Part shown: positions 5,371 to 37,289 of the stretch, in pieces
Position numbering within the stretch: position 1 is the first letter of the stretch
Layout of the letters: each line of letters starts with the position of its first letter
DNA from: Clostridia bacterium
Lineage (GTDB): Bacteria > Bacillota > Clostridia > Christensenellales > CAG-314
Assembly: GCA_028703495.1 (NCBI GenBank)
Contig: JAQVMT010000001.1
Coordinates: 1-64,000, forward strand
Length of the DNA stretch: 64,000 nt
Direction of reading: 5' to 3'
Notes under the pieces: generated by a model
What the model was told of the DNA's origin: nothing
The model's input: only the letters and a program-made list of their open reading frames with translations
Databases searched by the model: none
Made by a program: the position numbers and the translations under genes

Positions 5371-6256
5371 AGTACTCCTCCACATGCTTTTTGAGTATGT
5401 CGAAGAATTCACCCATATTTGTGCTGTGAAGGCTTTCGCTGATTTCTTTGCTATTGTAAAAGCTGCCGTCTATGTAGCCGCATACCGTACCTTCCTTCAG
5501 CTCTCCATACGAATCGATCACGCTTTGGAGCTTGCCGACTTCCAACTTGCCTTTGTCGAGTGTCAATCTGTTTTCGAAGAACGGATTTTTGCGCGTATAT
5601 ACGCCTCCGATAGCAAACACAGGTGCAAAATTCTCCCTTCTGCCCTTGATATCTCGATAAAGAGTGGCTATGGTATCCAACAAGGCGCAAACCCTTTTTG
5701 TCTTTTCCGTGTTCTCGATTTCGATATTTCCGTCTACCCCCACTCTGTCGAGGTCAACGGTAAGGGTATAGGTATAAAAAGACTTGTGAATCTCGCTTTG
5801 AACGATGCTGTTATTGGTGTTTAAACGCTTTGCCAAGCCCATATTGGTCAAAAAGTCCAAATCCGCCGAAAAGCTTTCCAAAGCAATCGCGTTGGAAAGA
5901 CGTGCCACCGCGGGGCGCACTGCCGCTCCTCCTGCTCTGTCTTCGCTCTTGGCTTTGGTCTTCATATATCCGAAAAGATCGATTTCGGGATACTTGTCGA
6001 TTGTCGCCTTGGGAGCAAATTGCACCACGGCTTCGCCGCTTCCGCCCTTGTAAAGCTCGGTTGTATCCCACCCAAGTTGGTTTATTATGTTATACCTTAT
6101 TGCCTGACGAGATATGTAGGAATAAGAGTTGCCGTCCCCTCGCGAAAGCTTTTTCAAAACCGTTATGTTACCGAAGCCCTCTCCGTAATTCGCGCTTTCC
6201 GCCTCAAAAATCAAACTTAACGTTAATCCCGGTTTCTTTGTCATATTATCTGTCAT
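5363..6256 (-). CDS. cas7: Cascade backbone subunit Cas7 (Cst2/DevR type)
   Basis: This 297-aa protein carries the early LSLIFEAESANYGEGFGNI segment and YSYISRQAIRYNII of the Cst2/DevR-type Cas7 family. It polymerises along the crRNA spacer and displays it for target pairing. AAGGAG precedes the ATG at 6256. The gap to cas8 upstream is 102 bp and contains no gene. The reading frame is complete, with length normal for the family. Confidence 0.93.
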   Translation of the reverse strand: MTDNMTKKPGLTLSLIFEAESANYGEGFGNITVLKKLSRGDGNSYSYISRQAIRYNIINQLGWDTTELYKGGSGEAVVQFAPKATIDKYPEIDLFGYMKTKAKSEDRAGGAAVRPAVARLSNAIALESFSADLDFLTNMGLAKRLNTNNSIVQSEIHKSFYTYTLTVDLDRVGVDGNIEIENTEKTKRVCALLDTIATLYRDIKGRRENFAPVFAIGGVYTRKNPFFENRLTLDKGKLEVGKLQSVIDSYGELKEGTVCGYIDGSFYNSKEISESLHSTNMGEFFDILKKHVEEYYA

Positions 6257-6358
6257 TTCAATTCTCCTTTTAATTCTTTTTCGCTTATTTCATAAATATG
6301 GAAGGTGTTTTCTTCCATAATCCGCTTCGAAATTGGAAGCTTCAAATTTTATAGTGCT

Positions 6359-8086: not shown

Positions 8087-8807
8087 GCAACACCTCCACT
8101 GCTTCAAACATTCCGAATCCAACCGAACACTTGCTTCCCATACCCGCTTGATACAGCAGATTCAGGTCGATAATATCGCCGGTCAAGATATACTCGCCGA
8201 TATTACTCTGAAACTTCAGTCCGTCGCTTCGAATAACCGTGACAGATGCCTTTTGCAGAGGGCGAAGCGCAATCTCTTTGTGCATGGGATCGTATCCTAT
8301 ATCGCGGCGTAATCTTGTCAGCGACGTATTAATACTCTGCGTAAACTCCTCGTCCTTGAAGGACAAAAATCTGTCCTTATTATCGGCAGTATGTACGCGC
8401 ACCAATAACGGACTCAAAAATTTAATCGCAAGAGTGTTTTGCATGAGGACCTTGCTGCTCATAATCGTGCATTTATTGAGTTTGATCCGCTGTCCCAGTT
8501 TCATTGGGTAGGTCTTACCCCGTGCGTTAACCGCAGAATTGTATAAACGCATGATAAACTCTTGATTTATACCCGATACGGTCACGCTCATGAGTAACGA
8601 CGGCACCGTCGTGTACTCTGCCTGAATACTCGCGCGCGGTAAATACACACTGAAAGTGAAACCTTTCATTTCAGTTCTTGCGTACAACGATGTAAAATAG
8701 TCGGGATATTTCTCGCTCAATATGCTTTTAAAAAAGCTCAATATCCCAAACCTGTAATCGTTATCTAACCGCTCCGTAAGCAATTCGAATTCCAACCTCA
8801 ACTTCAA
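8076..8807 (-). CDS. cas6: CRISPR pre-crRNA endoribonuclease Cas6
   Basis: A 243-aa protein ends with the glycine-rich RNA-binding loop GMGSKCSVGFGMFE, the hallmark of Cas6. It cuts the repeat transcript to leave the 8-nt handle on each crRNA. Translation probably starts at a TTG (8807) placed 9 bases after GGAGGT; no ATG fits as well. It is the first gene of the cas operon, behind the leader with two identical candidate operators (8844-8862, 8901-8919). Confidence 0.9.
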   Translation of the reverse strand: MKLRLEFELLTERLDNDYRFGILSFFKSILSEKYPDYFTSLYARTEMKGFTFSVYLPRASIQAEYTTVPSLLMSVTVSGINQEFIMRLYNSAVNARGKTYPMKLGQRIKLNKCTIMSSKVLMQNTLAIKFLSPLLVRVHTADNKDRFLSFKDEEFTQSINTSLTRLRRDIGYDPMHKEIALRPLQKASVTVIRSDGLKFQSNIGEYILTGDIIDLNLLYQAGMGSKCSVGFGMFEAVEVLHES

Positions 8808-14469: not shown

Positions 14470-17400
14470 TTATTGCTTGTTCTTTTTTTGTTTTGTAACG
14501 AACAAGACCACTATTGCCGATATAAATAATGCTAACGCAATAATGATGGCGGGATACTTGGGCATAAAGCTCTTCGAAACCGCTTCATCAATTGCTCCTT
14601 TGGCGATATTGCTTTCAACTTCGCTTTCAATAACGTCGCCGTTCGCGTTGTCGCTTGCATTATTATCGCTTGCGGTATTTTGATTGTCATTGTTACTTGC
14701 AGTACAAATTTCTGCGTTATACAACAATTCGTAATTGCTTACCTTTAGTTTGTCGTTTTCGGACAGCATTCCGTAAGCCTGCTTTGCAGCGTAGACTTCA
14801 TTTGTTGTATAGCTCACATTGCCAAGCTTGGAAATAAGCCCTTCAACATGCTTTGCGGAAGTATTAAGCAAAATGTTTTCGCCTTGATCGTTTGTTGCGT
14901 ATATCGTTTTAAAGTAACTCGTCCAAATAAAATTGTCATAAAACTTTCCGTTTTGAGGACGATATAGCGTCAATTCAAGGTCAGCTTCAATATTATCCAC
15001 GAAGTTGTCATAGTAATAGTCTTGTTTTTTACGCCACAAGCCGTTTAGTACCGGAGCATTACTTGACAGGCATATAACTTCTTTTAAATTGTCAACGCCG
15101 TATAATGCTCTGTCGCCAACAGCCAGAAGTGATTTCGGCAGAGTGACCTTTGTCAATGCTTTATTTGCGCCGAAGGAATTCGGAGCCAGGAAAAGCACTC
15201 CCTCCGGTACGATATACTCAGTATCGGTTTTAGCGACCGAATAAAGTATAAGCGTTGTCATTTCCTTGTTAAACAGAACTCCGTCTATTATCGTGAAGTA
15301 CGGATTGTCTTCGGCAACAATAATGCTATTTAAGCTATCGCACCCCGCAAACACCGAGTAAAAGTCCAAATTCTTAATATTTGAAGGGATATATATCTCT
15401 CTTAGCGAAACACATAGAGCAAAGGCAGAACCGCCAATCGTAACCAAGCTTTCAGGTAAATCAAGCTTTTCGATGCTTTCACACGAGTAAAATGCATAGC
15501 TGCCGATTTCCATAAGTCCTTCGGGTAAAGTAACGGTGACTAAAGACTTACAGTAATAGAAGGCATAATCGCCTATCCTTTCCAGTATCGGAGCTTCGCC
15601 GTCAAAGGTTAACGATTGCATTCCACTAAATCTCAAGAAACAGTTATTCGGTATTTCCTTAACATTTGAGGATAACACGACACCCTTAAGCAAGGGCTTT
15701 TCGTATTGCCAGTCGAAATTTCCGCCAACTACCGAACTGCCCGGATCCAACGAGCCTGCGTTAACCACGTATAAGGCGTTATCGTATGAGAAGGCGTTCT
15801 CATCTATCGTAACAACAGTGGAGGGCATTACATAAATTCCGTCATAATCCCAAGCGGAAGGTTGTTTGTAAACTCTTGTCATTGCTTTGTCGTACATTAC
15901 ACCGTACTCGTCAACCGTTAAGTAGGGGTTGTTCGCATCAACCGTCCAGCGCTTCAACATACTAGCGGCATTCGATACGTAACCTGCAATGTAATCTACC
16001 CTTCCTGCGAAATAGACTGTGGTTAGTTTTGGACAGCTGTTGAATACAAAGAAATCCAAATAACCCAAATCCTTGTGGAAATATACTTCCTCCAATTCGG
16101 GACAAGCAGAGAAAGCAGATCCGTTAATTCCGCCTATGTTGCCGTAAAAATGAACGGTTTTGAGTGGAATTCCCGAAAAATCAACGTTGTATTCATTCAT
16201 ATAGCTTCCGATAGTACCGATATTGCCGTAGAAGGAAACCGTATTCAGTGCGTTCATTCCGGTAAATGAATTATAAAGACCGCTAAAATCTCCGTAGATT
16301 TCTACGCTCGTTACGTTTTCAAGTAGGTTAAATGAATGACTACCAAGTGCTGTAACGTTAGCAGGAAGTATGATTTCGGTGAAGCCAAGATTGCGTACAA
16401 ACGCCATTCCGCTTATTGAATGAACATATTCAAATGAGTTAAACTCACCCAACGCAGTACATTCAAAGAAGCATCTATCCGGTATCGTCGGGCAATTGCT
16501 TGACCAATTCACCACGGCAAGCTTTGTACAATTACTAAAGCAGCTACTGCCGACAGAGGTAACGGTATTAGGTAGAGTAACCGAGGTTAATCCGCTCTTA
16601 TAGAACGCTTCGTCACCGATAGTAACTAACCCGTCATTGAACGTCACGTCGGAAAGATTGATGCACCCATAAAAGGCTCTGGCTAATACTGTTTTGACAT
16701 CCGCTCCGAAGATTATTCCTTCGATCGCGGTATTGGCAAAAGCCTTACTGCCGATTGTATGAACGCCGTTTGGAATAACCACTTGCTTTGCCGCACCTTC
16801 ATATGCGGTTAATACGCCGTTTTCAATGATAAATCCGGTATATTCGGTTAAGTAAGCTACAAGCTCTTTCCAACCCTCGGCGTTTGCATATGCATCTAAA
16901 CTGCCGGTAGGTACGCTTATCGAATATCCTGAAGGCACATTTAAGAAAGCATTCTTTCCAAGCACGGGCGGAACGTGACCAAACAGGTTTAGACGTCTTA
17001 ACGAACAGGATGCAAATGCTTCGTTACCGATACTGCTTACTCCTTCTGCAAGGTGCACCAAAACCAACGACTTGCAATAATAGAAAGCTCTGTCTTCTAC
17101 AGCGGTTAGTTTATATCCCGTATATAATTCCTGCAAATCACTGTATGCAAATGCTTCCGCACCGATAGCTTTGATTTTCAAGGGCAAGTTTATTATGCGC
17201 GATTTTCCGGAATAGGACGTTAACACATTGTCCTCACTTACTGTAAAGACGCTTATATCCTCCAATCTATCTACGTAATCGGTATATAAACGAGAATAAG
17301 CGGCTACGCAACCTTCGGGAACATAGATCCTTCCGTTTTCGGTTTTTGAAAATGCGTTTGCGCCTATTGCGGCAGGTTCTCTTCTGTTTAGAGTTATACT

Positions 17401-20400
17401 TTTAAGCACAAAGCATTCGTCAAAAGCTCTTTGACCTAAGCTGGTTACCGTATCGGGCAACTCCACAAAAGCCAATGAGGAGCATTTGTAAAATGCGTTG
17501 CTACCAATAGTAGCCAGTGCCGTATCTTCTAGGTTAATGTATTTTAGCGCGCCGCAATCCTCAAACGCACATAGTCCTATTGATTGTATGCGGGGGGAAA
17601 GCTCAACTTTTACTAACTGAGTACAAAATCGAAATGCCATCGATTGTATTGCCGTTACGGTTGAAGGAAGCTTGACGCTTTGCAGAGAGGAATTATAGAA
17701 CATACTCTCGCCGACATATGCGATTTTGGTATCCTCAAGGTTGACCGAGCGAATATTAATACAATTAACAAATGCGGCAGACTCCAAAACCATCAGGGTT
17801 GACGGAAGTCTCAAATCAGTGATTCCTTTTACATATTGGAAGGCATTGTTTCCGATACTTACCAACTTGGTATTTTCAAGATTAATTTCACTCAGTTTAT
17901 TGTCATTGAGAAAAGCCCCCGATCCTATTGAAGTCAGGGTTGAAGGCAATACCACTTTTTTCAACGAGCCACAATGACCGAAAACGTATTGAGCGATAGT
18001 CGTAATGCCCTCTGGAATCACAACCTCTTCTATCGCGGTTCCGTCAAAAAGCCAGCCGTATGTTAAATCGCAATTTGGTGACAGTCTGACAGTCTTAAGG
18101 CTCGAGCATTCATAAAAAACACCGTTAGCCATATAGGTCACACTGTCAGGAATATAGATTTCGGTTAAAGAAGCGCATCCGTAAAAAGCAGATTGACGTA
18201 GATAGACAAGCTTCGTCGGGAACTCCATTTCGCTTAAGTTTTTACAGTAAGCAAATGCGCATCCGCCTATGCTAGTCAAAGACTGCGGGAAAGAAACCTT
18301 TTTTATTTCATCGTGGTAAGCGAAGATTCCGTTAGCCATCGTGCTGATATTTCTGATGGCGGTTACGCCGTCGGGAATAATGACATGTTCTGCGTTTCCC
18401 GTATATGCCGTGATCGTTCCATTGCTGATTACGAAGTCACTTGGAGAAGATTCACTGTTTATCTCGAGCTTATCGGTGTTTTGAATCGAGCTTTTCTCGC
18501 CATTGCCAGTCGAATTTCCGATGTTTTCTTGTTCATCCATAGAAATGGAGTAAACAGAATAATTCATCGCGTAATCCTGTAAAACAAAGGTTAACTTATT
18601 GTTTATGAGCTTGCTCATATAGTCGGTTACGTCGATTGTTACGATGTTATTACTGTTCCTTTCAAACTCATATATCGGGCGAGCATAGTCATCTATCGGA
18701 ATTAATTCATTTCCTGCGTTCATAGTATAGAACTGCATATTCATAAGATAGTGATTATCACAAATCTCAAAATCTGCGTACGTCCTTCCGTTTTCCTCTC
18801 TGATTTTTGCATCAATCAAGGTAGGCGCCTCAAAATCTATGTATACAGGGAAGCTAATTGAATCCTTTACGTTTCTTATGGGTTCATCGTATGCTAATTC
18901 CGCCGTAATTGTAACTATAACCTTTTGGTTGTTTGCCAACATCAGCATTGAAGGAGAGAAGCCAAGGTTGTGTGCGGTGTTAGAGTTAACATAACTCTTC
19001 CTTGCCGTCGGCGCGTAGCTATCCATATAGACCGTTCCGTTATACGCGTCTTCGATATAGTATGTCAAGTTATAGCAGTTTCTGAGTAATCCGAAGTAAA
19101 CCGATACAAACTCGCTTGCACAGTTACTGAATACGCTAATTGCATTTTTATCGGCATCGGGAGCAACCTCTTTTGCTCCTTCGGGTAAAACGTAAACGTA
19201 AGTGCCCATTTTGATTAAATCACTGCGATTAAATACTGCAATCGGAGCAACAGGATATACCAGAGCTTTTTCTTCGTCATAAATAGTAGCGTCAAATATA
19301 GGAGCTTCCGTCCAATCGCCATAAAAACCGAGGAATGGAATGGATATGTCTACCCCGCTTTTATTTGCGGCAAGCAAGGATACGAAGCCCTCTATATACC
19401 AGCCGTATTTGAAGTTGTTATCAAAATAAGCTCTACTTTGTTCGCCCAACACAACGGACAACGAGATTTCTGCAGTCATTCCTGCCTTTACTCGCACATT
19501 CATTCCGTCAATTTCGCCGTTTTTAACCTTTACCGAAACGGAATAGTCTGTTTGTTCAAACATTAATCCATTTAAAGAAAAGCCGTCAATGCCTAACTGT
19601 GGTGCAATTAAAGTCAAATCAAGCAAATAACTTAAATCCGTGTCGCCGAAGTTCATCAGGTTGAATCTCAGATTATACTTGCCCTCTTTATCCTTGTCGT
19701 CACCAAGTTCAAGCTTGGTCTTGTCTGTTCCGTTAACGGTGAGTACTGCGGTTGTACTTAAAGCGGCGTCCAAATTCATAATGCCCGACCCCTGCTTCCT
19801 CACAGAAGCGGGTACGCCGTTGGTATCCACTACAATCGAAGACGTACTCATAACAAGTTGATAAACCATTGCTCTTACTTCTTTTGCCGTAAAATGAGGG
19901 AATATACTTTTAACATATTGACGAACGGCAGTTGCTGCCCCTGCCATATTGGGAGATGCCATACTGGTTCCGCTCATTTCAACATAGTATGCGCCCGAAG
20001 AAGAAGGCACGGACGAATAAATCGCACCACCCGGAGCGGTGATTTCCGGCTTTAGTTTCAGGTCGGGTGTTGGTCCCCAGCTTGAAAAATCCGACAAATA
20101 CGGACCGGAGTAATTATCTACTGAAAAATTAATGATACCCGTTCCTGCTTTTTCAAGCATTAAGCCGTCAGCTAGAGATATACCCGCTGTCGGTATTGAA
20201 AGCTCGTCGATCTGCATACGGATCAAACCGTCAGTGTTATTATACACCAAGCATGCTATTGCGCCTTTATTAGAGGCATTCAGTTGTTTTTGTTGGAAGG
20301 ACAACCCGAAGCCTCTTTGCGTAACGGCAATTTTACCCGTAACGTCTATGTTTTCATATGAGCTTTCTACTCCACCGCCGGGAATGTACACAAACTCATA

Positions 20401-21837
20401 CGCTTTGTTCATTTCGTTTGCCAACATTTCTTCCACGAAATTATATAAATTTCCTTGCGAATTTGCAGCATCGTAAAAGAAAATAGGATTTTTTTCATAC
20501 CTAAGGTAAGGAATTAAACCCTTGTCGACACTTGCGGTGTTGAGTGCGGCATCATACGTACCGGGCATACCGACAGTACCATTGTCGGGGTTAGTCGAAA
20601 CGTCCGAACCATAATAGGAATTCATACCTGTACTGTAATAGTTTCCGCAAGAGGTTATCAGAGTAATTCCGGCTTCTTTAAGACTGTCAAAAGCCTCGTT
20701 TATGTATTCATTCTGGGCATAAACCTCTCTGCTAAATCCGCAAGGGCTTCCCAAGCTCATATTGATTACGTCTGCGCCCAAAAGTACTGCGTCATCTAGA
20801 GCGGCGGCAATATCCATAAAGTTTGCATTTGGAGAAACATCCGAAAAGACCTTCATTATCGCAAGCTGGGCATTCGGCACAACACCGCGAATAGTGTCTC
20901 CGTTTCCCGAAATAATACCGGCAACGTGAGTTCCGTGTGAATTACCCAAGGTTTGCACGGATGTGGCACTAGGAATAACGTCCATATCGAAATCGGCATA
21001 GTCAAAACCGTAAATTACCTTATCGTTTACACTGACCATATCTGAGGTAAAGCCTGAATCCAAACCACTCGTAAAGGGATGTAGGTTTTGAGATAGTCCT
21101 GAAATGTCAGAGTTTGTCAAAGAAAGCTGACCCGTCGGCATCTGGGTAAATGCCGGGTGCAAATAATCCAATCCTGTGTCAAGAATGGCTACTAACATTC
21201 CGTCACCCAAATACTCGGATTCATTCAATAACATTCCATTATCGTCATACAAGCCACTTAATCCGCTTGTTAAATATGCTTGTGCTTCCGCAGAAACCTC
21301 TGGAACGGTGTATTCCATTGCAATATCAACACTTATAACACCGTCTAGACGCGATAACAATGATAAATCGCCGTATCTTACACGAACAGCCAAGCCGCAA
21401 AATACCGTTTCATACGAGTATTTGTATTCTGCTTTTACACCGGCGGCTGCAATCGCCTGAATTACTCTTTGTTGTACTCTACGCGCATTTCTCAAAATGC
21501 TAGCTGCTTCCGAAGAGTTAATAAACTCCTCAATCGAACCGAATTCGGTTTGCGAATTAAACGCATCTACAAGCGATACCCCTTCAGTTCTTATTATCGT
21601 CCAATACTCTTGGTCGTCTGATGTTTGAGTTGTGATATCGACAATCTCATTTGAAAACATTTCTGCCATCAAACCGTTAAGCTGATTTACATCTATTCCA
21701 TTTGTTAGGTTGATGAATTCAACACTACGAGCTAGATCCGCATCACGTTCGACACTGGCAGATACTGTAAAAGTACCTATCAGCATAAGAACGACAGCGG
21801 CGGCAAGCATCATCACGATGCTTATTCTCTTGTTCAT
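14470..21837 (-). CDS. giant cell-surface subtilase with BspA-type leucine-rich repeats
   Basis: The product is 2455 aa. A signal peptide (ISIVMMLAAAVVLMLIGTFT) leads into an S8 protease domain with Asp220 (AILDTGLD), His301 (NSHGTHVAG) and Ser625 (GTSMASPNMAG). A PA-like insert (KIAVTQRGFG...) lies between His and Ser, as in lactocepin and C5a-peptidase types. Beta-sandwich regions follow, then from about residue 1130 a long array of BspA LRR_5 repeats (pattern ...IGSxAFxxCxxLxxVxLPxxVxxIG...). A single TM helix near the C-terminus (IIIALALFISAIVVLFV) ends in KQKKNKQ; no LPxTG is seen. It is predicted to be an outward-facing protease bound to the membrane. The gene is 12 bp behind the lipoprotein at 21850 and likely cotranscribed. 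TTCTCCTCC on the plus strand provides its ribosome binding site. Confidence 0.9.
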   Translation of the reverse strand: MNKRISIVMMLAAAVVLMLIGTFTVSASVERDADLARSVEFINLTNGIDVNQLNGLMAEMFSNEIVDITTQTSDDQEYWTIIRTEGVSLVDAFNSQTEFGSIEEFINSSEAASILRNARRVQQRVIQAIAAAGVKAEYKYSYETVFCGLAVRVRYGDLSLLSRLDGVISVDIAMEYTVPEVSAEAQAYLTSGLSGLYDDNGMLLNESEYLGDGMLVAILDTGLDYLHPAFTQMPTGQLSLTNSDISGLSQNLHPFTSGLDSGFTSDMVSVNDKVIYGFDYADFDMDVIPSATSVQTLGNSHGTHVAGIISGNGDTIRGVVPNAQLAIMKVFSDVSPNANFMDIAAALDDAVLLGADVINMSLGSPCGFSREVYAQNEYINEAFDSLKEAGITLITSCGNYYSTGMNSYYGSDVSTNPDNGTVGMPGTYDAALNTASVDKGLIPYLRYEKNPIFFYDAANSQGNLYNFVEEMLANEMNKAYEFVYIPGGGVESSYENIDVTGKIAVTQRGFGLSFQQKQLNASNKGAIACLVYNNTDGLIRMQIDELSIPTAGISLADGLMLEKAGTGIINFSVDNYSGPYLSDFSSWGPTPDLKLKPEITAPGGAIYSSVPSSSGAYYVEMSGTSMASPNMAGAATAVRQYVKSIFPHFTAKEVRAMVYQLVMSTSSIVVDTNGVPASVRKQGSGIMNLDAALSTTAVLTVNGTDKTKLELGDDKDKEGKYNLRFNLMNFGDTDLSYLLDLTLIAPQLGIDGFSLNGLMFEQTDYSVSVKVKNGEIDGMNVRVKAGMTAEISLSVVLGEQSRAYFDNNFKYGWYIEGFVSLLAANKSGVDISIPFLGFYGDWTEAPIFDATIYDEEKALVYPVAPIAVFNRSDLIKMGTYVYVLPEGAKEVAPDADKNAISVFSNCASEFVSVYFGLLRNCYNLTYYIEDAYNGTVYMDSYAPTARKSYVNSNTAHNLGFSPSMLMLANNQKVIVTITAELAYDEPIRNVKDSISFPVYIDFEAPTLIDAKIREENGRTYADFEICDNHYLMNMQFYTMNAGNELIPIDDYARPIYEFERNSNNIVTIDVTDYMSKLINNKLTFVLQDYAMNYSVYSISMDEQENIGNSTGNGEKSSIQNTDKLEINSESSPSDFVISNGTITAYTGNAEHVIIPDGVTAIRNISTMANGIFAYHDEIKKVSFPQSLTSIGGCAFAYCKNLSEMEFPTKLVYLRQSAFYGCASLTEIYIPDSVTYMANGVFYECSSLKTVRLSPNCDLTYGWLFDGTAIEEVVIPEGITTIAQYVFGHCGSLKKVVLPSTLTSIGSGAFLNDNKLSEINLENTKLVSIGNNAFQYVKGITDLRLPSTLMVLESAAFVNCINIRSVNLEDTKIAYVGESMFYNSSLQSVKLPSTVTAIQSMAFRFCTQLVKVELSPRIQSIGLCAFEDCGALKYINLEDTALATIGSNAFYKCSSLAFVELPDTVTSLGQRAFDECFVLKSITLNRREPAAIGANAFSKTENGRIYVPEGCVAAYSRLYTDYVDRLEDISVFTVSEDNVLTSYSGKSRIINLPLKIKAIGAEAFAYSDLQELYTGYKLTAVEDRAFYYCKSLVLVHLAEGVSSIGNEAFASCSLRRLNLFGHVPPVLGKNAFLNVPSGYSISVPTGSLDAYANAEGWKELVAYLTEYTGFIIENGVLTAYEGAAKQVVIPNGVHTIGSKAFANTAIEGIIFGADVKTVLARAFYGCINLSDVTFNDGLVTIGDEAFYKSGLTSVTLPNTVTSVGSSCFSNCTKLAVVNWSSNCPTIPDRCFFECTALGEFNSFEYVHSISGMAFVRNLGFTEIILPANVTALGSHSFNLLENVTSVEIYGDFSGLYNSFTGMNALNTVSFYGNIGTIGSYMNEYNVDFSGIPLKTVHFYGNIGGINGSAFSACPELEEVYFHKDLGYLDFFVFNSCPKLTTVYFAGRVDYIAGYVSNAASMLKRWTVDANNPYLTVDEYGVMYDKAMTRVYKQPSAWDYDGIYVMPSTVVTIDENAFSYDNALYVVNAGSLDPGSSVVGGNFDWQYEKPLLKGVVLSSNVKEIPNNCFLRFSGMQSLTFDGEAPILERIGDYAFYYCKSLVTVTLPEGLMEIGSYAFYSCESIEKLDLPESLVTIGGSAFALCVSLREIYIPSNIKNLDFYSVFAGCDSLNSIIVAEDNPYFTIIDGVLFNKEMTTLILYSVAKTDTEYIVPEGVLFLAPNSFGANKALTKVTLPKSLLAVGDRALYGVDNLKEVICLSSNAPVLNGLWRKKQDYYYDNFVDNIEADLELTLYRPQNGKFYDNFIWTSYFKTIYATNDQGENILLNTSAKHVEGLISKLGNVSYTTNEVYAAKQAYGMLSENDKLKVSNYELLYNAEICTASNNDNQNTASDNNASDNANGDVIESEVESNIAKGAIDEAVSKSFMPKYPAIIIALALFISAIVVLFVTKQKKNKQ

Positions 21838-21849
21838 TTTTTCTCCTCC

Positions 21850-24800
21850 TTAATACTGCATAAATGGGCTTTTATTGCCCAATACATACTGTTTGCAAGC
21901 CATAGGGCTGAATATAAACACCGATAATGAATTATTCGTGTGTATAGGCTCCGTTACCGAGTTGTCATACATGTAATTGTCCTTGATCTCGAATGCGGAT
22001 GTCTTTTCGTTGTTGCCGTCGGTAAATACCACATGCGTGTATCTTGAAGAGATTTGCATATAGTAGTAATCCTTAGCTCCGAGCATTTCTTCGGTAATTT
22101 GTGTTCCGGGGAACGCGGTTAGCGGTACTTCAACGCCGTTTTCGATGTAGTAAGCGTAGTAATACATTGTTGTCCACTTGTCGTCAATGTTTTTAAATGC
22201 GATTGTAAAGTTGGGGTAAATAGCTACCGTTACCGAGTTGTCATACATGTAATTGTCCTTGATCTCGAATGCGGATGTCTTTTCGTTGTTGCCGTCGGTA
22301 AATACCACATGCGTGTATCTTGAAGAGATCTGCATATAGTAGTAATCCTTAGCTCCGAGCATTTCTTCGGTAATCGGAGTTCCCGGGAACGCGGTTAGCG
22401 GTACTTCAACGCCGTTTTCGATGTAGTAAGCGTAGTAATACATTGTTGCCCACTTGTCGTCAATGTTTTTAAATGCGATTGTAAAGTTGGGGTAAATAGC
22501 TACCGTTACCGAGTTGTCATACATGTAATTGTCCTTGATCTCGAATGCGGATGTCTTTTCGTTGTTGCCGTCGGTAAATACCACATGCGTGTATCTTGAA
22601 GAGATCTGCATATAGTAGTAATCCTTAGCTCCGAGCATTTCTTCGGTAATCGGAGTTCCCGGGAACGCGGTTAGCGGTACTTCAACGCCGTTTTCGATGT
22701 AGTAAGCGTAGTAATACATTGTTGCCCACTTGTCGTCAATGTTTTTAAATGCGATTGTATAATTTGTGAATATAGGTTCTCCTGAAGTAATATTCGGGAA
22801 CAATTTCCAAGAATCCGCGTTCTTATATGCATCTACAGAACCAACCGGAACGGTTATGGTAACATTTTCCGAAACACCCGTAAACACAGTTACGTCCTCG
22901 ATTGTAGGAGGCACAGGATTTAAAGACGTTATATCCTGAATAGAGAAGCAATCCAAAAACGCATTTGTGCGGATAAAGTTCACATTTTTAGGAATTTCTA
23001 CATATTTTAAAGCCGAGCATTCAGCAAATAAGTATCCACCAAACTGCGTCAATGCACAATTGTCCGCAAACTTGACAGAAGTTAATTTTGTACAATCCTT
23101 GAATACGGAGCAGAGTCCATATTGTCCTGCTTGTCCTAAAGCAGCAAGCGTAGCGGGAAAAGTGATATCTACCAGCCCGGACATTTGAAAAGCAAATTCA
23201 CCGATATAAGACAATTTGGTATCTTCAAAGTTGATATCGAATAGTGAATCGCAACCCAAAAACGCTATTGCATGGATTTTTTCCAATGTGGTCGGAAGCA
23301 CAACTTTTGTAACGTTTTTATATCTAAAAATATTTGCGCCTGCTAATTTACCCGCAGATATTTCTTTCACGCCTTCGGGTATGACCACAACTCCGCCCTT
23401 ACCATTGTATTCGACCAAAACGCCGTTTTCTACGACAAACTCCAAGCGGAAGTCTGCCACGAGGACAGTATCGGATTCGATAAAGAACTCATTAAAGTCC
23501 ACTATTTTATCGTTGTACATCCAACCGCAGAAAACAAAGCCCTCCGATACAGGGTCTTCGGGAAGCTCCCAATATCCGTTTTTCGTGACCTTGATAATTC
23601 TATATACATCTTCACCCACCATAAAAGTAACCGTCCAATAGTTCACTTCAACGGCATTTATTTTATTATAGGCTTCGGCATATGCGATTCCGACAGCTCT
23701 TGTTCCAATCGCGTTGTTCAAGTTCTCGATACCCTGAGTATAAATATTTTGAACAAGTGCCCAATTTTCCGTGGAATAATCCGCTTCCTTAAGTGATTCT
23801 ACATAATTAGTGAGTTCCCTTATTCTTACGGACTTTTGTAACTCGCCTTGTGCAATGTCTTCTTCTTTTGTAAAGACATTGTCTACTCCCTTATAGAAGT
23901 CATTTGCGGTTTTCTCGGGATATGGTAAACCGCCCTCGTATTCGCTAATTACTTGGCACGCATATTCATAAAGACGAATAATCTCCGCCCAGTCTTCCTG
24001 CCAATATTCTTCAACGCTTAATGCATCCATAAATGCTTGCATTTCTTGAGGGATGGTCTTTACTTCGTCCATAGCGGCTTTTGCCGACGAGGCAAGCTCG
24101 ACTATTTCTATTTCATTTTCTGCCGACGAAATAAGCAACTCATATTCTGAGCAAATATCTGTAATTGCTGTCCATGCGGCGTAAGTATAATGATATCTAT
24201 ATGACGGCTGTGCTTTTTGCGCTTTATAGTCCTTGATTTCCGCTATGTAATGCGCTTTAGCCAGATTGATATCATATTCAAATACCGCATAGAGAACTAT
24301 GTCCGAAGTAACAGGAGTCGAAAAATTATACTCTGTTCCGTCTTTCGATACCCATCCCTTAAAAACGTGGAATTGCATTTCGGGATTAGGTGTGTTTTCG
24401 ATCAACTCACCATATTTCACCACTGTTGAATACAGAATTTCGTTATTTGCCATGAAAACAACACTAAAAGTCTGCACTTCCCATAGCGCAGTTAGATGCA
24501 TGTCTTGAGTAACGGGATCTTCAAAGTTCCACATCGTTGCGTCAGGTAGCATCCAGCCTTTAAGTACAAACCCGACATATTCGCATTTAGGAATCGATAG
24601 CTTACTTCCGTAGGCAACGTTTTGACTTTCAACGTCACTTCCGCCTGCAGAATCGAATGTGACCGTAAGCATTATCGCTTTCCAATCGGCGGTAAGGATA
24701 ATGCCCGCAACTACCGGAACATTAAAATTGTAAGTAGCGCCGTCTAGTAACCAACCATTGAAAATGTAGCCCGTCTTAACGGGATCCGCAGGACGTTGCG

Positions 24801-25383
24801 CCCATCCGTTGAGCAAAACCAATTGAGATGGAATCGCACTTCCTCCCGCACTGTCGAAGGAAACAGTAGCATATGTAATCGTTTCCTCCCAAACGGCAAT
24901 CAATACTATGTCTTCGTATACAGGACTAGAAAAGTCATATAATTCGCCGCCTACGGTATTCCATCCTATCAAATCGTACCCGATTTGCGTAGGCTCTTGA
25001 GGGCATATTGCTTTTTTGCCGTACTCCACTTCCTGCGTGGAGACTTCGCTTCCGCCCGCACTATAGAAACGAACGGTTAGGTACCGTCTTTGCCACTGTG
25101 CAATAAGAGTAACGTCGGCTTCAATAGCCGTTTCAAAGTTGAACTCTATTCCGCCGCAGTACCACCCGATGAACACATACCCATCTTTAGATGGCTCCTT
25201 TAGCTCCGGTGCTTCGGCACCAAGCTGAACTATCTGTTCCCCTAGTAAACTACCATCGGTATCCACATAGGATATTGTTACCGTCGTAGGTTTGTCCGCG
25301 CCACAGCCGACAATTACCATGCAAACTACCAGCAACAAAACAATAGTCATTGCCCCTAGCAATTTCTTTTTCTCGATTTTCAT
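21850..25383 (-). CDS. lipoprotein with InlB-type repeats, LRR and three tandem starch-binding-like modules
   Basis: The product is 1177 aa. The signal MKIEKKKLLGAMTIVLLLVV ends in a lipobox IVGC, so it should be a lipid-anchored surface protein. Five InlB/Listeria-Bacteroides repeats (GYxFxGWxxxGxxYxFxxPVxxDxxLxAxW) are followed by a helical FIVAR-like stretch, one more InlB repeat, and a short BspA LRR region. Three 92-residue copies of a module opening TIAFKNIDDKWATMYYYAYY complete the protein. That module's pattern of aromatic residues, PGTPITEEM, YYYMQIS and VVFTDGNNEKT resembles CBM26-type starch-binding domains; this is inference. The start at 25383 follows AAGGAGG. It leads an operon with the giant protease. 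Confidence 0.85.
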   Translation of the reverse strand: MKIEKKKLLGAMTIVLLLVVCMVIVGCGADKPTTVTISYVDTDGSLLGEQIVQLGAEAPELKEPSKDGYVFIGWYCGGIEFNFETAIEADVTLIAQWQRRYLTVRFYSAGGSEVSTQEVEYGKKAICPQEPTQIGYDLIGWNTVGGELYDFSSPVYEDIVLIAVWEETITYATVSFDSAGGSAIPSQLVLLNGWAQRPADPVKTGYIFNGWLLDGATYNFNVPVVAGIILTADWKAIMLTVTFDSAGGSDVESQNVAYGSKLSIPKCEYVGFVLKGWMLPDATMWNFEDPVTQDMHLTALWEVQTFSVVFMANNEILYSTVVKYGELIENTPNPEMQFHVFKGWVSKDGTEYNFSTPVTSDIVLYAVFEYDINLAKAHYIAEIKDYKAQKAQPSYRYHYTYAAWTAITDICSEYELLISSAENEIEIVELASSAKAAMDEVKTIPQEMQAFMDALSVEEYWQEDWAEIIRLYEYACQVISEYEGGLPYPEKTANDFYKGVDNVFTKEEDIAQGELQKSVRIRELTNYVESLKEADYSTENWALVQNIYTQGIENLNNAIGTRAVGIAYAEAYNKINAVEVNYWTVTFMVGEDVYRIIKVTKNGYWELPEDPVSEGFVFCGWMYNDKIVDFNEFFIESDTVLVADFRLEFVVENGVLVEYNGKGGVVVIPEGVKEISAGKLAGANIFRYKNVTKVVLPTTLEKIHAIAFLGCDSLFDINFEDTKLSYIGEFAFQMSGLVDITFPATLAALGQAGQYGLCSVFKDCTKLTSVKFADNCALTQFGGYLFAECSALKYVEIPKNVNFIRTNAFLDCFSIQDITSLNPVPPTIEDVTVFTGVSENVTITVPVGSVDAYKNADSWKLFPNITSGEPIFTNYTIAFKNIDDKWATMYYYAYYIENGVEVPLTAFPGTPITEEMLGAKDYYYMQISSRYTHVVFTDGNNEKTSAFEIKDNYMYDNSVTVAIYPNFTIAFKNIDDKWATMYYYAYYIENGVEVPLTAFPGTPITEEMLGAKDYYYMQISSRYTHVVFTDGNNEKTSAFEIKDNYMYDNSVTVAIYPNFTIAFKNIDDKWTTMYYYAYYIENGVEVPLTAFPGTQITEEMLGAKDYYYMQISSRYTHVVFTDGNNEKTSAFEIKDNYMYDNSVTEPIHTNNSLSVFIFSPMACKQYVLGNKSPFMQY
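21935..22762 (-). repeat. three 276-bp in-frame tandem repeats
   Basis: The period is exactly 276 bp (92 codons): the sequence TACCGAGTTG lies at 21955, 22231 and 22507. Copies are almost identical, including silent positions. The C-terminal copy differs by a few codons (WTTM for WATM, GTQI for GTPI). The near identity points to recent expansion. Confidence 0.92.
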
Positions 25384-25693
25384 GTGATCCTCCTTATAGA
25401 TCTTATATTGATTTATATTTTTACGCATATCAAATGCGTTAAAATTGCTTTCTGTATATCACTTAGATATAAGAGCTTCTGATTCTGTATATTCTGCGAA
25501 TGAATTATAGTAAATAGCTTTCTCAAAATCGGCAGCTATAAGCAATATACTTTAATCGGGCATTTTTGGGCAATATGCGCAAATGATGCCGACTAAAACT
25601 GTATAAGCACACGTGGAGTAGCAATCGATTTGTTAACATACCGACGTGTCCGATACGCTTTTTGCATATAAATTCATCACACATTCTTGTCGA

Positions 25694-31555: not shown

Positions 31556-34225
31556 ATGAAAAAATTTGCGATTATATTGATTGCATTGATTTGTCTTACG
31601 CTTGTATTTACGGCTTGCGAGGGAAACGGTGCAAAAAAGACCTTAACGGTCAATGTTAACGACAGCGCGCTGGGCGAGGCGTTCGGCGGTGGAAATTACG
31701 AAGTCGGTGCGATAGTGCAGGTGTCAGCCTTAGCAAAAGCCGACGGTGTCTTCGAGGGTTGGTACGCGATGGGCGTGAAGCTGAGCGGTGGAGCCGAATA
31801 CAGCTTTATGATGCCTTCCGCGGATTACATAATCGAAGCAAGGTTTTTGAAAAAAGACGTGACATACTTCACGGTAACCTTCAAAAATGCCGATGGCAGC
31901 GTGCTTGAAACCCAAACGGTGGAAAAAGGCAAGGGCGCGACGGCTCCCGAAGATCCTACGATGGCATCCGATGCCGAACACGATTATATTTTTGTCGGTT
32001 GGGACAGCGCATTCGACAACGTAACCGCAGACATAACGGTTACCGCGCAGTTTAGAGACGTTTTGAGAAGCTACACTCTTACTGTTAATGCGCAAGGCGG
32101 CGGCAGCGTCGCACCGAGCGGCGGAGTCTACGCCGTCCACAGTCAAATAACGGTAACCGCCACGCCGAACGAGGGATACAAGCTTGTCGGTTGGTACGAG
32201 GGCGAAACGCTGTTGAGCGAAAGCGCGACCTACACCTTCGATATGCCTGCAAGAGATCTGACGATCGCGGCTGTGTTCGAGGAAATATCTAAATACACGT
32301 TAACCATATCTGCGACAGAGGGAGGTTCTGTTTCGGGAACGCCAAGCGGCGATTACTACGCAAATACGAAAGTTGAGCTCACCGCCACGCCGAACGAGGG
32401 ATACAAGCTTGTCGGTTGGTACGAGGGCGAAACGCTGTTGAGCGAAAGCGCGACCTACACCTTCGATATGCCTGCAAGAGATCTGACGATCGCGGCTGTG
32501 TTTAAGGACGACACAACGCCGGAACCTTCCGCAGGGCTGAAGTTCACTCTGTTGAGCAGTAAAACCGCATACGGAGTAAGCGTGGGCACTAGCACTGCAA
32601 ACGGAGCAACGGAGATAGTAATTCCAAGCACCTATAACGATCTTCCTGTGACAAAAATCGCAGACTATGGCTTTTATGATAACTACAACGGAAACAACTA
32701 CGCAAGAACAAACAACATAACCCAAATAATCATTCCAGATAGCGTCGTTAGTATTGGTTCCAGTGCGTTCGAACGGTGCAGTAGCTTACCCCAAATAACC
32801 ATTCCAAATAGTGTCACAAGTATCGGTTCTTCTGCGTTTTATTCTTGCAGAAGTTTAAGCAGTATAAACACAAATAATGCAAGTATACCCGAGGGCAACG
32901 GAATATATGTAATTGACAAGGACGGGAACGTCGTTAAGGAAAACGGAATTGCAGTGGTGGTTAAAAGCGGCGATTCGCACACATTAAACTTTGCGGGTGG
33001 AGCGGTAACAACATTAACCATCCCCCAAAGCGTGACTAGTATCGGTTCTTCTGCGTTCCATGGTTGCAGTGGCTTAACCCAAATAACCATTCCAGATAGC
33101 GTCGTTAGTATTGGTTTTCGTGCGTTCTCAAGTTGCAGTGGCTTAACCCAAATAACCATTCCAAGTAGCGTCATTAGCATTGGTTCTTCTGCGTTCTCTC
33201 AGTGCAGTGGCTTAACCCAAATAACCATTCCAAGTAGCGTCGTTAGTATTGGCTCTTATGCGTTCTCTAGTTGCAGTAGCTTAACCCAAATAACCATTCC
33301 AAATAGCGTCATTAGTATTGGCTCTTCTGCGTTCTCTAGTTGCAGTAGCTTAAGCAGTATAAACACAAATCATGCAAGCATACCCGAGGGCAACGGAATA
33401 TATGTAATTGACAAGGACGGGAACGTTGTTAAAGAAAACGGAATTGCAGTGGTGGTTAAAAGCGGCGATTCGCACACATTAAACTTTGCGGGTGAAGCGG
33501 TAACAACATTAACCATCCCCCAAAGCGTGACAAGTATCGGTTTTTATGCGTTCTATTATTGCAGTAGCTTAACCCAAATAACCATTCCAAGCAGTGTGAC
33601 GGATATCGGTTCTATTGCGTTCTTCGGTTGCAGTAGTTTAAGCAGTATAAACACAAATCATGCAAGCATACCCGAGGGCAACGGAATATATGTAATTGAC
33701 AAGGACGGGAACGTTGTTAAAGAAAACGGAATTGCAGTGGTGGTTAAAAGCGGCGATTCGCACACATTAAACTTTGCGGGTGGAGCGGTAACAACATTAA
33801 CCATTCCCCAAAGCGTGACTAGTATCGGTTCTGCTGCGTTCGAGAATTGCAGTGGCTTAACCCAAATAACCATTCCAAGCAGCGTGACGGATATCGGTTC
33901 TGCTGCGTTCTCTCAGTGCAGAGGCTTAACCCAAATAACCATTCCAAGCAGCGTGACGGATATCGGTTCTTATGCGTTCTCTCAGTGCAGAGGCTTAACC
34001 CAAATAACCATTCCAGATAGCGTCGTTAGTATTGGTTTTCGTGCGTTCTCAAGTTGCAGTGGCTTAAACCTAATAACCATTCCAGAAAGCGTGACGAGTA
34101 TCGGTTCTTATGCGTTCGATGGATGCAGTAACTTAACCATATATGCAGAAGCGATAAGCAAGCCAAATGGCTGGTATAGCGACTGGAACTCTCTCTCGTC
34201 CTGTAATATGGGGGTGTACGCTTAG
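31556..34225 (+). CDS. BspA/InlB-repeat surface lipoprotein (first part of a split gene)
   Basis: The product is 889 aa up to the frameshift. MKKFAIILIALICLTLVFTA followed by C is a lipoprotein signal. Residues 30-330 are repeats of the type GYKLVGWYEGETLLSESATY and GGSVAPSGG (InlB and related bacterial surface repeats). The rest is a BspA-type LRR array with the unit LTQITIPSSVTSIGSSAFSQ. Three nearly identical 186-bp cassettes (32861, 33356, 33644) encode ASIPEGNGIYVIDKDGNVVK inserts. The start at 31556 follows AAGGAG. The frame ends at 34225 after a (CT)4 tract near 34189-34197; the remaining domain continues in the next frame. Confidence 0.87.
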   Translation: MKKFAIILIALICLTLVFTACEGNGAKKTLTVNVNDSALGEAFGGGNYEVGAIVQVSALAKADGVFEGWYAMGVKLSGGAEYSFMMPSADYIIEARFLKKDVTYFTVTFKNADGSVLETQTVEKGKGATAPEDPTMASDAEHDYIFVGWDSAFDNVTADITVTAQFRDVLRSYTLTVNAQGGGSVAPSGGVYAVHSQITVTATPNEGYKLVGWYEGETLLSESATYTFDMPARDLTIAAVFEEISKYTLTISATEGGSVSGTPSGDYYANTKVELTATPNEGYKLVGWYEGETLLSESATYTFDMPARDLTIAAVFKDDTTPEPSAGLKFTLLSSKTAYGVSVGTSTANGATEIVIPSTYNDLPVTKIADYGFYDNYNGNNYARTNNITQIIIPDSVVSIGSSAFERCSSLPQITIPNSVTSIGSSAFYSCRSLSSINTNNASIPEGNGIYVIDKDGNVVKENGIAVVVKSGDSHTLNFAGGAVTTLTIPQSVTSIGSSAFHGCSGLTQITIPDSVVSIGFRAFSSCSGLTQITIPSSVISIGSSAFSQCSGLTQITIPSSVVSIGSYAFSSCSSLTQITIPNSVISIGSSAFSSCSSLSSINTNHASIPEGNGIYVIDKDGNVVKENGIAVVVKSGDSHTLNFAGEAVTTLTIPQSVTSIGFYAFYYCSSLTQITIPSSVTDIGSIAFFGCSSLSSINTNHASIPEGNGIYVIDKDGNVVKENGIAVVVKSGDSHTLNFAGGAVTTLTIPQSVTSIGSAAFENCSGLTQITIPSSVTDIGSAAFSQCRGLTQITIPSSVTDIGSYAFSQCRGLTQITIPDSVVSIGFRAFSSCSGLNLITIPESVTSIGSYAFDGCSNLTIYAEAISKPNGWYSDWNSLSSCNMGVYA

Positions 34226-34997
34226 TGCAGACAAAACGTATGTAGTATCCTTTACCAAGACAAATACAAGTCCTAGTGTATTAAAGGGACTTCAACCACC
34301 GATAAGGGCAGATTATGTATTTATTGCGTGGTATGAAAGCAGTAGCTTTGAAGGAATCGCAATAACAGATTTATCGACAGTAGCCGATGGCACAGTGTTA
34401 TATGCAAGATATGTACCGAAAGATGAAGCAACAGCAGAAACAATCGGGCTTAAGTACACATTAATTAACGATAACACGGAATACGAAGTAAGCATAGGAA
34501 CGGCATGGTCTAGTGTCATAGTAATTCCAAGCACCTATAACGGTCTTCCTGTGACAAAAATCGCAAACAACGGCTTTTATGATTGCTACAGCGGAAACAA
34601 CGGCGCAAGAACAAACAACATAACCCAAATAACCATTCCAAGCAATGTGACGAGTATCGGCGATAGTGCGTTCCGTGGTTGCAGTAGCTTAACCCAAATA
34701 ACCCTTGAAGAAAACAGTCGACTCACAACTATCGGCTCTTATGCGTTCTATGGTTGCAGTAGCTTAACTCAAATAACCATTCCAAGCAGTGTGACGAGTA
34801 TCGGCTCTTATGCGTTCTATGGTTGCAGTAGCTTAACCCAAATAGTATTTGAGGATACCGAATATTGGTTCAGAACGACAAGCTCGAGCGACTTTGAGAA
34901 CAAAATAAACGGAACCTTTACCGACCTTTCAAACCCGACAGATAATGCCAACTACTTTAAGTCCACATACGCAAATTACGGTTGGTATAAGCTGTGA
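34167..34997 (+). CDS. C-terminal part of the split BspA/InlB lipoprotein
   Basis: It has no ribosome binding site of its own. From about 34198 it reads RPVIWGCTLSADKTYVVSF, then ADYVFIAWYESSSFEGIAIT (InlB-type repeat) and more LTQITIPSSVTSIGSYAFYG units. It ends with FKSTYANYGWYKL at 34997. The junction TGGAACTCTCTCTCG would read WNSLSRPVIWG with one more CT unit, giving a single protein of about 1147 aa. It therefore belongs to the gene at 31556, separated by loss of a dinucleotide or by phase variation. Confidence 0.8.
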   Translation: MAGIATGTLSRPVIWGCTLSADKTYVVSFTKTNTSPSVLKGLQPPIRADYVFIAWYESSSFEGIAITDLSTVADGTVLYARYVPKDEATAETIGLKYTLINDNTEYEVSIGTAWSSVIVIPSTYNGLPVTKIANNGFYDCYSGNNGARTNNITQITIPSNVTSIGDSAFRGCSSLTQITLEENSRLTTIGSYAFYGCSSLTQITIPSSVTSIGSYAFYGCSSLTQIVFEDTEYWFRTTSSSDFENKINGTFTDLSNPTDNANYFKSTYANYGWYKL

Positions 34998-35432
34998 TAA
35001 GAATCATTCTTACTATATACCTTCTATAAATTAAACTCCTTCTAATCTCTTTTCCCAAGCAATCGGCGTTTCGGGTGCGTGGTGGGGCTATGGCTCCCGT
35101 TACGTCGATTGCATCTTGGTTTACCTGCGCCGTAAAAATCTCGCATAACCTTCGGCAAAGACAAACAACATCGGCTTCGGAGCTTGGGCTTGGGCATCGG
35201 TTATGCCGCAATTAATCTAAGCTTGCAATGTTATTTGACAAAGCCGCGTGCGTGTGGTAAAATAATCGTGCGATGTGTTTAACCTATATCAATCCACGCG
35301 ATGATTTCGGTGTTGTCGGCGGTAAGCCGAATAACCGCGGTGTGTTTATATCAATCCACGCACCGAATATATTAAAAGCCTCATAATAATGCTTATTGTT
35401 TATCGGCGTTTGCCGCTTATGGTTGGAGCTTT
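34998..35432. other. intergenic region before the HTH membrane protein
   Basis: No gene is seen. A 15-bp motif TATATCAATCCACGC occurs at about 35288-35302 and 35348-35362 behind GTGTTTA; it recalls part of a type I-C CRISPR repeat, but nothing else is conserved. The 20-bp neighbourhoods otherwise differ. Confidence 0.45.
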
Positions 35433-36875
35433 ATGGAATCGAATCTGGGACGGAAAATTAAAATACTGCGCAAGGAATACAATCTCACTCAACAGCAGTT
35501 GGCGGAGATATTGCATATGTCCAACAAAACCGTCAGCAAGTGGGAGAACGGGGGCAGTATTCCCGATTGCCAATCGCTTACCATTATGTCCAAGGAATTT
35601 GCCATTCCCGTGGAGTTTTTGACAAACGACAAAATTCCCTATACCGAGGTTTACGATTATTTCCACTCTGCTTTGCCGCTTCCGAGCGCGGACGCTACTC
35701 TCGACAATGTTATTGAAGATATTCAACCGCAAACTCCCGTAAAAAGGTCGTTTTTCGGCAATAAAAAGCTTGTTATGCTTTTGGGCTTTGTCTGTGTGAT
35801 TCTTATTTCCTTTGTAGTTGTTCTGTCGGTCTTGACTTTGCGCGGTTCGCAAACGACTGCCGAAACCGTGTACAAAACCGCTTGCGACGGAATTGTCGGA
35901 ATCAAAGCCGTTGACGGCGATGGAAAAGAGAGTTTTTCTTTGGGAGTTTTCCTTTCCGAAAACAAGCTGCTTGCGCCATTTTCGGTAGTTGCGGGAAGCA
36001 CGCAAATCCTTGTATATTACAATAATGCGGCGCATTCCGTGACCTCGGTTGCCGACTTTAATGCGCAAGCCGGAATCGCGGTTATAAACTCCCCGATCGA
36101 CGGTACGCTTTTTGCCGTGCGCCACAAGCCAAAAGCCGCATCGGCTGTCTATTCCATAGGCTTTCCCGATGGTGACAGTGTGGCTTCGGGCGTCCCCGTC
36201 ATTTCAGAGGGAGTTGTTTCCGCCTCCAATTTCAGGCTTTGGGAGGGCGCGACAACATTCGCGGCAACCGGCTTGAGCAACTTCGATTCGGTACTGCTCA
36301 ACTCCGACTGCGAGTTGCTCGGTGTGTATTCGCCCTCGTTCGCTCAAGGCTTCGATGGACAACCCGTAATTCCTGCCTCGTTGTTCGCTGTCGTTTCCGC
36401 AGATTATTCCTATTCGATCGCAGAGGTGAACGCCCGAAATTCGAGCTATTCGGTTGTCTTTAAGGACTGGGACAACAGCGTGCTTGCCACGCAAACGGTT
36501 ACCTACGGCGGATCGGCAACCGCTCCCGATGCGCCCAAACGTTCGGGCAACGCCCAGTATGAATACGTATTTGCAGGCTGGGATGCCGACTTCTCGAGGG
36601 TTACGCAAAACACCGTCGTCACAGCTGTCTATACACCAAAAGCCGTTAATTACGCGCTTTCCGTCAACCGCACAAACGGCGGCAAGGTGTCAGTTTCCGG
36701 CGCGGTTTGCGCGTTCGGATCATCGGTTTCCGTTATCGCCACTCCCGACGAGGGCTTCGTTTTTTCAGGCTTTTACGACTCCTCGAACAAACTGCTTTCA
36801 ACCAACCTTAAATACACCTTCACAATGCCTGCAAACGATGTCGTAATCTTTGCCGTGTTTCAACCCGAACAGTAA
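35433..36875 (+). CDS. transmembrane HTH protein with degenerate trypsin-like ectodomain and InlB-type repeats
   Basis: The product is 480 aa. Residues 5-60 are an XRE HTH (LRKEYNLTQQQLAEILHMSN, KTVSKWENG). Residues 112-136 are one TM helix (LVMLLGFVCVILISFVVV). Residues 144-335 follow the HtrA/trypsin layout: SLGVFLSENKLLAPFSVVAG for GSGVIIS..GyIlTN.HVV.G, AGIAVI for DLAVL, VYSIGFPDG, SEGVVSA, and SNFDSVLLNSDCELLGV for GNSGGPLLN..GEVIG. All three catalytic positions appear replaced, so it is a pseudoprotease. Residues 355-480 are InlB/surface repeats like those of the lipoprotein at 31556. Predicted to be a membrane-spanning regulator whose outer part senses a ligand; the target is unknown. 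Confidence 0.85.
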   Translation: MESNLGRKIKILRKEYNLTQQQLAEILHMSNKTVSKWENGGSIPDCQSLTIMSKEFAIPVEFLTNDKIPYTEVYDYFHSALPLPSADATLDNVIEDIQPQTPVKRSFFGNKKLVMLLGFVCVILISFVVVLSVLTLRGSQTTAETVYKTACDGIVGIKAVDGDGKESFSLGVFLSENKLLAPFSVVAGSTQILVYYNNAAHSVTSVADFNAQAGIAVINSPIDGTLFAVRHKPKAASAVYSIGFPDGDSVASGVPVISEGVVSASNFRLWEGATTFAATGLSNFDSVLLNSDCELLGVYSPSFAQGFDGQPVIPASLFAVVSADYSYSIAEVNARNSSYSVVFKDWDNSVLATQTVTYGGSATAPDAPKRSGNAQYEYVFAGWDADFSRVTQNTVVTAVYTPKAVNYALSVNRTNGGKVSVSGAVCAFGSSVSVIATPDEGFVFSGFYDSSNKLLSTNLKYTFTMPANDVVIFAVFQPEQ

Positions 36876-37135: not shown

Positions 37136-37289
37136 TTTAAAAAAACGCCCGACGTTATGTCAAGCGTTTTAGTTTTATCTATTGATATCCGATAATCGGA
37201 GTTTTATGCTATTTAAAAAAACGCCCGACGTTATGTCAAGCGTTTTAGTTTTATCTATTGATATCCGATAATCGGAGTTTTATGCTATT
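37136..37289. repeat. 76-bp tandem duplication covering the iorB 3' end and hairpin
   Basis: TTTAAAAAAACGCCCGACG and the following sequence to TATGCTATT occur at 37136-37213 and 37212-37289 with no differences noticed. The right copy contains the iorB stop codon (37285-37287). Each unit holds AAAACGC...GCGTTTT, a likely terminator stem for iorB, and the imperfect ATCCGATAATCGGA palindrome. Confidence 0.9.

Follow-up and report, generated by a model that had tools for sequence, protein, structure and literature searches.

Membrane-bound transcription regulators are a described class, the TTRs, of which ToxR, CadC and TcpP are the best studied (PMC10269533). TTRs carry a cytoplasmic DNA-binding domain, a transmembrane (TM) helix and an extracytoplasmic part in a single protein (PMC10269533), and the same plan is predicted for a protein encoded in the 64,000-nucleotide stretch of Clostridia bacterium DNA analyzed here (the window). 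Of the two traits of a TTR, the first is a chain that carries both a DNA-binding domain and one or more TM helices, and the window protein has this; the second is control of transcription from the membrane, for which it offers a candidate operator at its own promoter. Its DNA-binding domain is of the XRE type and not a winged helix-turn-helix (HTH), and its proposed sensor consists of an S1C trypsin-like domain with InlB repeats behind it. A word search of the main text of PMC10269533 returned no mention of trypsin or XRE.

An S1C domain in a signaling role is known from RsgI9, an anti-sigma factor of Clostridium thermocellum, whose extracellular S1C protease-like domain is reported to bind polysaccharide; in its family, signals are relayed through intramembrane and Clp proteolysis (PMC12203970). 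RsgI9 is a membrane signaling protein with an extracellular S1C domain, as is proposed for the window protein, and it provided the top Foldseek match (7sjy). However, the domains of RsgI9 include an anti-sigma domain and a periplasmic domain that is autocleaved, whereas the window protein has a DNA-binding HTH as output, with the XRE HTH taking the N-terminal place that the anti-sigma domain has in RsgI. Unlike RsgI9, the window protein is without NTF2 and without the RsgI N-terminal domain; Pfam and NCBIfam gave no match in it to either the RsgI N-terminal domain or the autocleaved periplasmic domain.

The ectodomain also shares its fold and sequence profile with the HtrA/DegS/DegP serine proteases (S1C), among which DegS is likewise membrane-tethered and likewise signals. 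The window protein differs from these proteases in that the catalytic triad is lost, an HTH lies N-terminal and InlB repeats lie C-terminal; the C-terminal PDZ domain present in many HtrAs was not found, and two InlB-type repeats stand there instead. By this comparison, the nearest known precedents appear to be RsgI9 for the outside half and the TTRs for the whole plan.

Domain layout and the trypsin-like ectodomain

The open reading frame, its coordinates and the order of its domains (XRE HTH, one TM helix, trypsin-like domain, two InlB-type repeats) are as the original prediction gave them (Table 1). The 480-aa protein has one strong hydrophobic segment (residues 113-131, mean Kyte-Doolittle 3.26) and this is preceded by the Lys/Arg-rich stretch VKRSFFGNKK, a positive charge from which the N-terminus can be placed, most likely, inside the cell. 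The two C-terminal repeats, which the original prediction had assigned to the type present in the neighboring lipoprotein, do have their best match within the genome in that lipoprotein (46% identity, E 1e-32); the next best matches reach 37-39% identity.

Table 1. Features of the regulator gene and its upstream region (window positions)
Feature	Position	Strand	Basis or detail
Near-consensus sigma-70-type promoter, TTGACA-17-TAAAAT, TG before -10	35235..35263	+	11/12, consensus match only
Candidate operator half 1, TATATCAATCCACGC	35285..35299	+	15-bp exact direct repeat
Candidate operator half 2, TATATCAATCCACGC	35347..35361	+	62 bp on, about 6 helical turns
Whole gene, XRE HTH - TM - pseudo-S1C trypsin - two InlB-type repeats	35433..36875	+	480 aa
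XRE/Cro-type helix-turn-helix, residues 9-62	35457..35618	+	Pfam HTH_3, E 2.6e-11
Single TM helix, about residues 113-136	35769..35840	+	Hydropathy 3.26
HtrA/S1C trypsin-like ectodomain without catalytic triad, about residues 141-337	35853..36443	+	HMM, AF2, Foldseek
Ser184 replacing catalytic His	35982..35984	+	Alignment
Gly214 replacing catalytic Asp	36072..36074	+	Alignment
Phe284 replacing nucleophile Ser (GNSGG to SNFDS)	36282..36284	+	Alignment
Repeat 1, Flg_new (List_Bact_rpt), residues 339-394	36447..36614	+	Pfam, E 5e-7
Repeat 2, Flg_new_2 (divergent InlB B-repeat), residues 407-479	36651..36869	+	Pfam, E 5.5e-15

Pfam gave no match in the middle of the protein, even at a loose cut-off, and NCBIfam and PDB sequence searches with the ectodomain alone gave nothing useful. 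When 396 genomes of the order were scanned with the ectodomain by itself, the hits were HtrA-like proteins, with E values of 1e-7 and weaker. When the ectodomain was compared with a trypsin-domain HMM made from 31 domains, from which the window protein and three HTH-TM relatives had been left out, it scored 46.6 bits (E 3.2e-13), whereas none of 2000 shuffled sequences scored above 11 bits. AlphaFold (AF2) run on the whole protein from its single sequence was unusable (pLDDT 39), but a model from a 35-sequence alignment reached pLDDT 86 and pTM 0.80. Foldseek against the PDB with this model returned S1C/HtrA chains (probability 1.00, TM about 0.70), led by 7sjy, the S1C-NTF2 part of RsgI9, and followed by DegQ, HtrA1 and DegS. 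The comparison of a predicted structure with HtrA, which the original prediction had proposed as a check, finds the trypsin-like double barrel of the S1C/HtrA group, whereas a middle domain not folding into such a barrel would have refuted that prediction. The HMM score and the modeled structure show that the HtrA/S1C trypsin fold of the middle domain is real. The closest fold is that of RsgI9, and ligand binding by the window ectodomain is putative. The domain is missed by Pfam because it has diverged so far, which suggests that other such sensors may be overlooked.

In the same alignment of 35 sequences the catalytic columns H54, D84 and S154 (alignment numbering), which correspond to residues 184, 214 and 284, are at least 90% conserved. 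None of the His-Asp-Ser triad that characterizes S1C/HtrA proteases is present in the window protein (S184, G214, F284), and the Gly after the catalytic Ser is replaced by Asp. The predicted replacement of all three catalytic positions is thereby confirmed, although finer points of the motifs as first read need correction: it is a Gly that stands in for the Asp (AQAGIAV), and N283, the Asn that precedes the missing Ser, is retained. Replacement of the whole triad strongly suggests that protease activity has been lost in this ectodomain.

Relatives with the same layout

Full-length matches to an HTH-TM-S1C profile were found in 4 of the 396 genomes of the order, those being the window genome and genomes G305, G259 and G393. 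The window's own row was included in building this profile; the 31-domain HMM is the independent test of the S1C domain. No further full-length member was present among the matches listed for 391 genomes of the class, or among those listed at E 1e-40 for 398 genomes of the phylum. Within the window's own family, an ectodomain search found only the window protein itself (1 of 41 genomes), and thus no close relative of it. A related-locus search of genome contigs gave one short and uninformative match (Terrimonas, 44% over 41 aa). Genomes G006, G076 and G054 were considered as sources of additional members and rejected, as their proteins are TM-S1C only, with no in-frame HTH.

The three related proteins have the same four-part order as the window protein, with Flg_new repeats behind the S1C domain in all four, but they are longer (884-1483 aa compared to 480 aa) and carry more repeats. 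In G305 (L050) and G259 (L051) the triad is intact, with NYHV, DIAII or DVAII, and GNSGG, and Trypsin_2 matches at about 1e-29. In G393 (L053) the His is replaced by Ser, while the Asp and Ser appear to be kept. The original prediction knew of no described family with this layout, but three further genomes of the order have it, and in two of these the triad is intact. Homologues with an intact triad had also been named as a refutation of the prediction. The existence of such homologues does argue against a family that is intrinsically dead, but it leaves the loss of the active site in the window protein itself unaffected. The XRE-TM-S1C-InlB layout hence exists with an active-looking protease, and catalysis appears to have been lost to a differing degree in two members. 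With two relatives intact and one lacking only the His, protease activity was probably lost secondarily in the window protein.

In the ectodomain tree the degenerate members have long branches (8.04 for the window protein and 3.5 for G393, compared to 0.27 and 0.14 in the intact pair), which is as expected after loss of catalysis with the fold kept. The three proteins from G305, G259 and G393 (f28) form one group (94/89). Placing all four ectodomains in one clade was neither rejected nor supported (AU p 0.155). Either a sister relationship to the f28 group or a separate fusion could account for the window protein. It is possible, though we hold it only tentatively, that the XRE-TM-S1C-InlB family of one-component regulators records an extracellular protease, wired directly to a DNA-binding domain, that was turned stepwise (intact, His lost, all lost) into a pure pseudoprotease receptor.

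Directly behind the regulator gene in G305 and G259 lies a gene for a 155-aa protein of no known family, which is absent behind the window gene. This protein is probably a membrane protein and has no Pfam match (L104 12433-12897, L105 7449-7916). It is a possible partner of the intact HTH-TM-S1C-InlB protein.

The order is rich in XRE-TM proteins that bear LRR_5 and/or InlB repeats, which make up 6 of the 10 long XRE-TM proteins scanned (L113, L114, L117, L119, L121, L125). Like the window protein, these join an XRE domain and TM segment(s) to BspA-type LRR and/or InlB modules; unlike it, they are without a trypsin-like domain and several have more than one TM segment. One of them, in genome G031 of the window's own family (L121 1558-4761), is a 1068-aa XRE-TM protein with five Flg_new repeats and LRR_5 and no protease domain, and it reads as a surface-module regulator of the same plan as the window protein, minus the protease domain. 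This suggests that the joining of XRE-TM to surface modules recurs in the order and that the window protein belongs to that habit. In two other proteins (L030, L032) a single chain holds an intact HtrA domain and BspA-type LRRs together with a TM segment and a lengthy region resembling a coiled coil, and we know of no described family with that layout.

Upstream region and gene neighborhood

The 15-bp direct repeat TATATCAATCCACGC is the longest exact repeat in the 432-bp region upstream of the regulator gene. None of 2000 Markov sequences of the region reached an exact repeat of 15 bp, the maximum being 13, and the 2.17-Mb genome has two exact copies of it, both upstream of the regulator. An upstream RNA element was considered and set aside, as there is no Rfam match in the region. 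A different block is shared by the three relatives upstream of the gene; its core is dyad-like, reading TCAAC-N5-GTTGA in two of them (G305 and G259) and being imperfect in G393. The block, GAAATTCAACYNNTRGTTGAGA(A), precedes all three HTH-TM-S1C genes (L104 7788-7984, L105 11269-11489, L106 8142-8464, imperfect in L106), and it is a candidate operator of the G305/G259/G393 group. The direct repeats of the window differ from it in form and place. Both the direct repeats and the relatives' block are consistent with, rather than proof of, autoregulation.

Upstream of the regulator lies a lipoprotein gene with three InlB-type repeats and LRR_5 (31556-34225), which is continued in another frame by an overlapping ORF (34167-34997). 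The break, at 34167-34225, falls on a short CT run (AACTCTCTCTCG); it could be a frameshift or come from an assembly error, or the surface protein could be switched by slippage. The original prediction had the regulator possibly controlling this neighbor, and had proposed as a check a search for the same architecture beside BspA-like genes. When the loci of the relatives in G305, G259 and G393 were examined, their gene neighbors were not BspA/LRR genes, so that a BspA-like neighbor is not conserved among these loci. Nothing like TATATCAATCCACGC is found before the lipoprotein gene, the two upstream regions have no word longer than 10 bp in common, operator-like or otherwise, and there is no second-site operator in the genome. 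Control of the lipoprotein gene at 31556 was therefore set aside as unsupported.

Downstream of the regulator is a convergent gene pair that resembles indolepyruvate oxidoreductase (names from sequence), and behind the regulator gene a 76-bp block with terminator-like stems occurs in two perfect tandem copies (37136-37289). The window also holds a cluster of surface-protein genes, in which 14470-21837 encodes a 2455-aa protein that reads as a protease of the subtilisin type with an extended stretch of BspA-type LRRs after it, and a large InlB/LRR surface protein gene (21850-25428) contains 276-bp tandem repeats (2.9 copies, 98%, 21951-22759). A type I-like CRISPR-Cas cluster with genes reading like cas3, cas5, cas7, cas8 and cas6 lies on the minus strand at 2297-8807, and a CRISPR array at 355-731 has at least six repeats of ATTTACATTCCATTATGGTTGGATTAGATAC with 66-67 bp spacing. 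A reading of the direct repeats upstream of the regulator as CRISPR remnants was rejected, as the array repeat differs and BLAST of the region finds no related array. A defense-system reading of the regulator was likewise rejected, as PADLOC matches were only to XRE or trypsin domains of other proteins.

Proposed function and significance

A one-component sensor running from the outside to DNA is the most economical reading of the layout. We consider it fairly probable that the protein is a membrane-bound one-component regulator in which the dead S1C domain binds outside and signals via the helix to the XRE domain, with its own promoter as first target. Of the original prediction, the layout, the trypsin fold and the dead triad are upheld, but control of the neighboring surface protein finds no support. 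In the proposed mechanism the XRE domain would lie in the cytoplasm, joined by one TM helix to an S1C/HtrA-type pseudoenzyme outside that is extended by the two InlB-type repeats. The pseudoprotease ectodomain would bind a peptide, glycan or wall fragment, and binding would alter how the HTH domains associate or where they lie at the membrane, thereby changing transcription of the target or targets. The first of these would probably be the gene itself, via the pair of 15-bp direct repeats that follows its promoter. Such a protein may have derived from, or arisen in parallel to, the HTH-TM-active protease-InlB protein still found in relatives. The intact relatives also count against this mechanism, in that the ancestral signal could be proteolysis rather than binding.

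The order's other S1C proteins (L030, L032, L056, L063) are tethered by a TM helix or lipobox and carry InlB/LRR modules with no HTH, and RodZ is an established case of an HTH used for protein contacts. Both facts would fit a membrane-tethered scaffold or adhesin, in which the dead S1C domain and the InlB repeats bind a partner or substrate outside while the XRE domain serves as an anchor in the cytoplasm with little or no role in gene control. However, the HTH_3 domain shows good conservation (E 2.6e-11), the promoter of the gene itself is closely followed by operator-like repeats and the relatives have a block in common upstream, and we consider such a scaffold unlikely. A relay by regulated proteolysis as in RsgI, where ligand is bound, other proteases cut at the membrane and the freed HTH goes to DNA, would have its precedent in RsgI9, which is the best structural match, has an S1C sensor and belongs to a family signaling by intramembrane/Clp proteolysis (PMC12203970). 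The RsgI N-terminal and autocleavage domains were not seen in the window protein with Pfam and NCBIfam, however, and a cleavage site in it is hypothetical; we consider this relay distinctly unlikely.

The very long window branch (8.04), the lack of a conserved close homologue (1 of 41 family genomes) and the frameshift split in the neighboring LRR gene are what one might expect of a decaying gene, an HTH-TM-protease whose ectodomain has drifted after the protease became dispensable and which has no present sensory function. However, the 480 codons are without a stop, AF2 still yields a confident barrel, the HTH and both repeats score normally and a near-consensus promoter is kept. The open reading frame and the kept fold core speak against simple decay, which we regard as very improbable.

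Each half of the protein is already known; a single XRE regulator that joins them, and that stands in both live-looking and dead forms, was not found in the open-licence papers searched. No bacterial pseudoproteases with gene-control roles were found in that literature either, and they seem to be hardly described. The reading of the window protein as a membrane-bound one-component regulator would extend the RsgI9 precedent, in which the S1C domain is the sensor, beyond anti-sigma factors to a protein that binds DNA. Probably the window protein represents an uncommon form of gene regulator that sits in the membrane and responds to the cell's surroundings. Because one order holds this four-part protein both in intact and in dead form, proteolysis and mere binding can be compared as signals. 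If true, the stepwise loss of catalysis would show, in bacteria, how an enzyme turned into the sensor part of a transcription factor.
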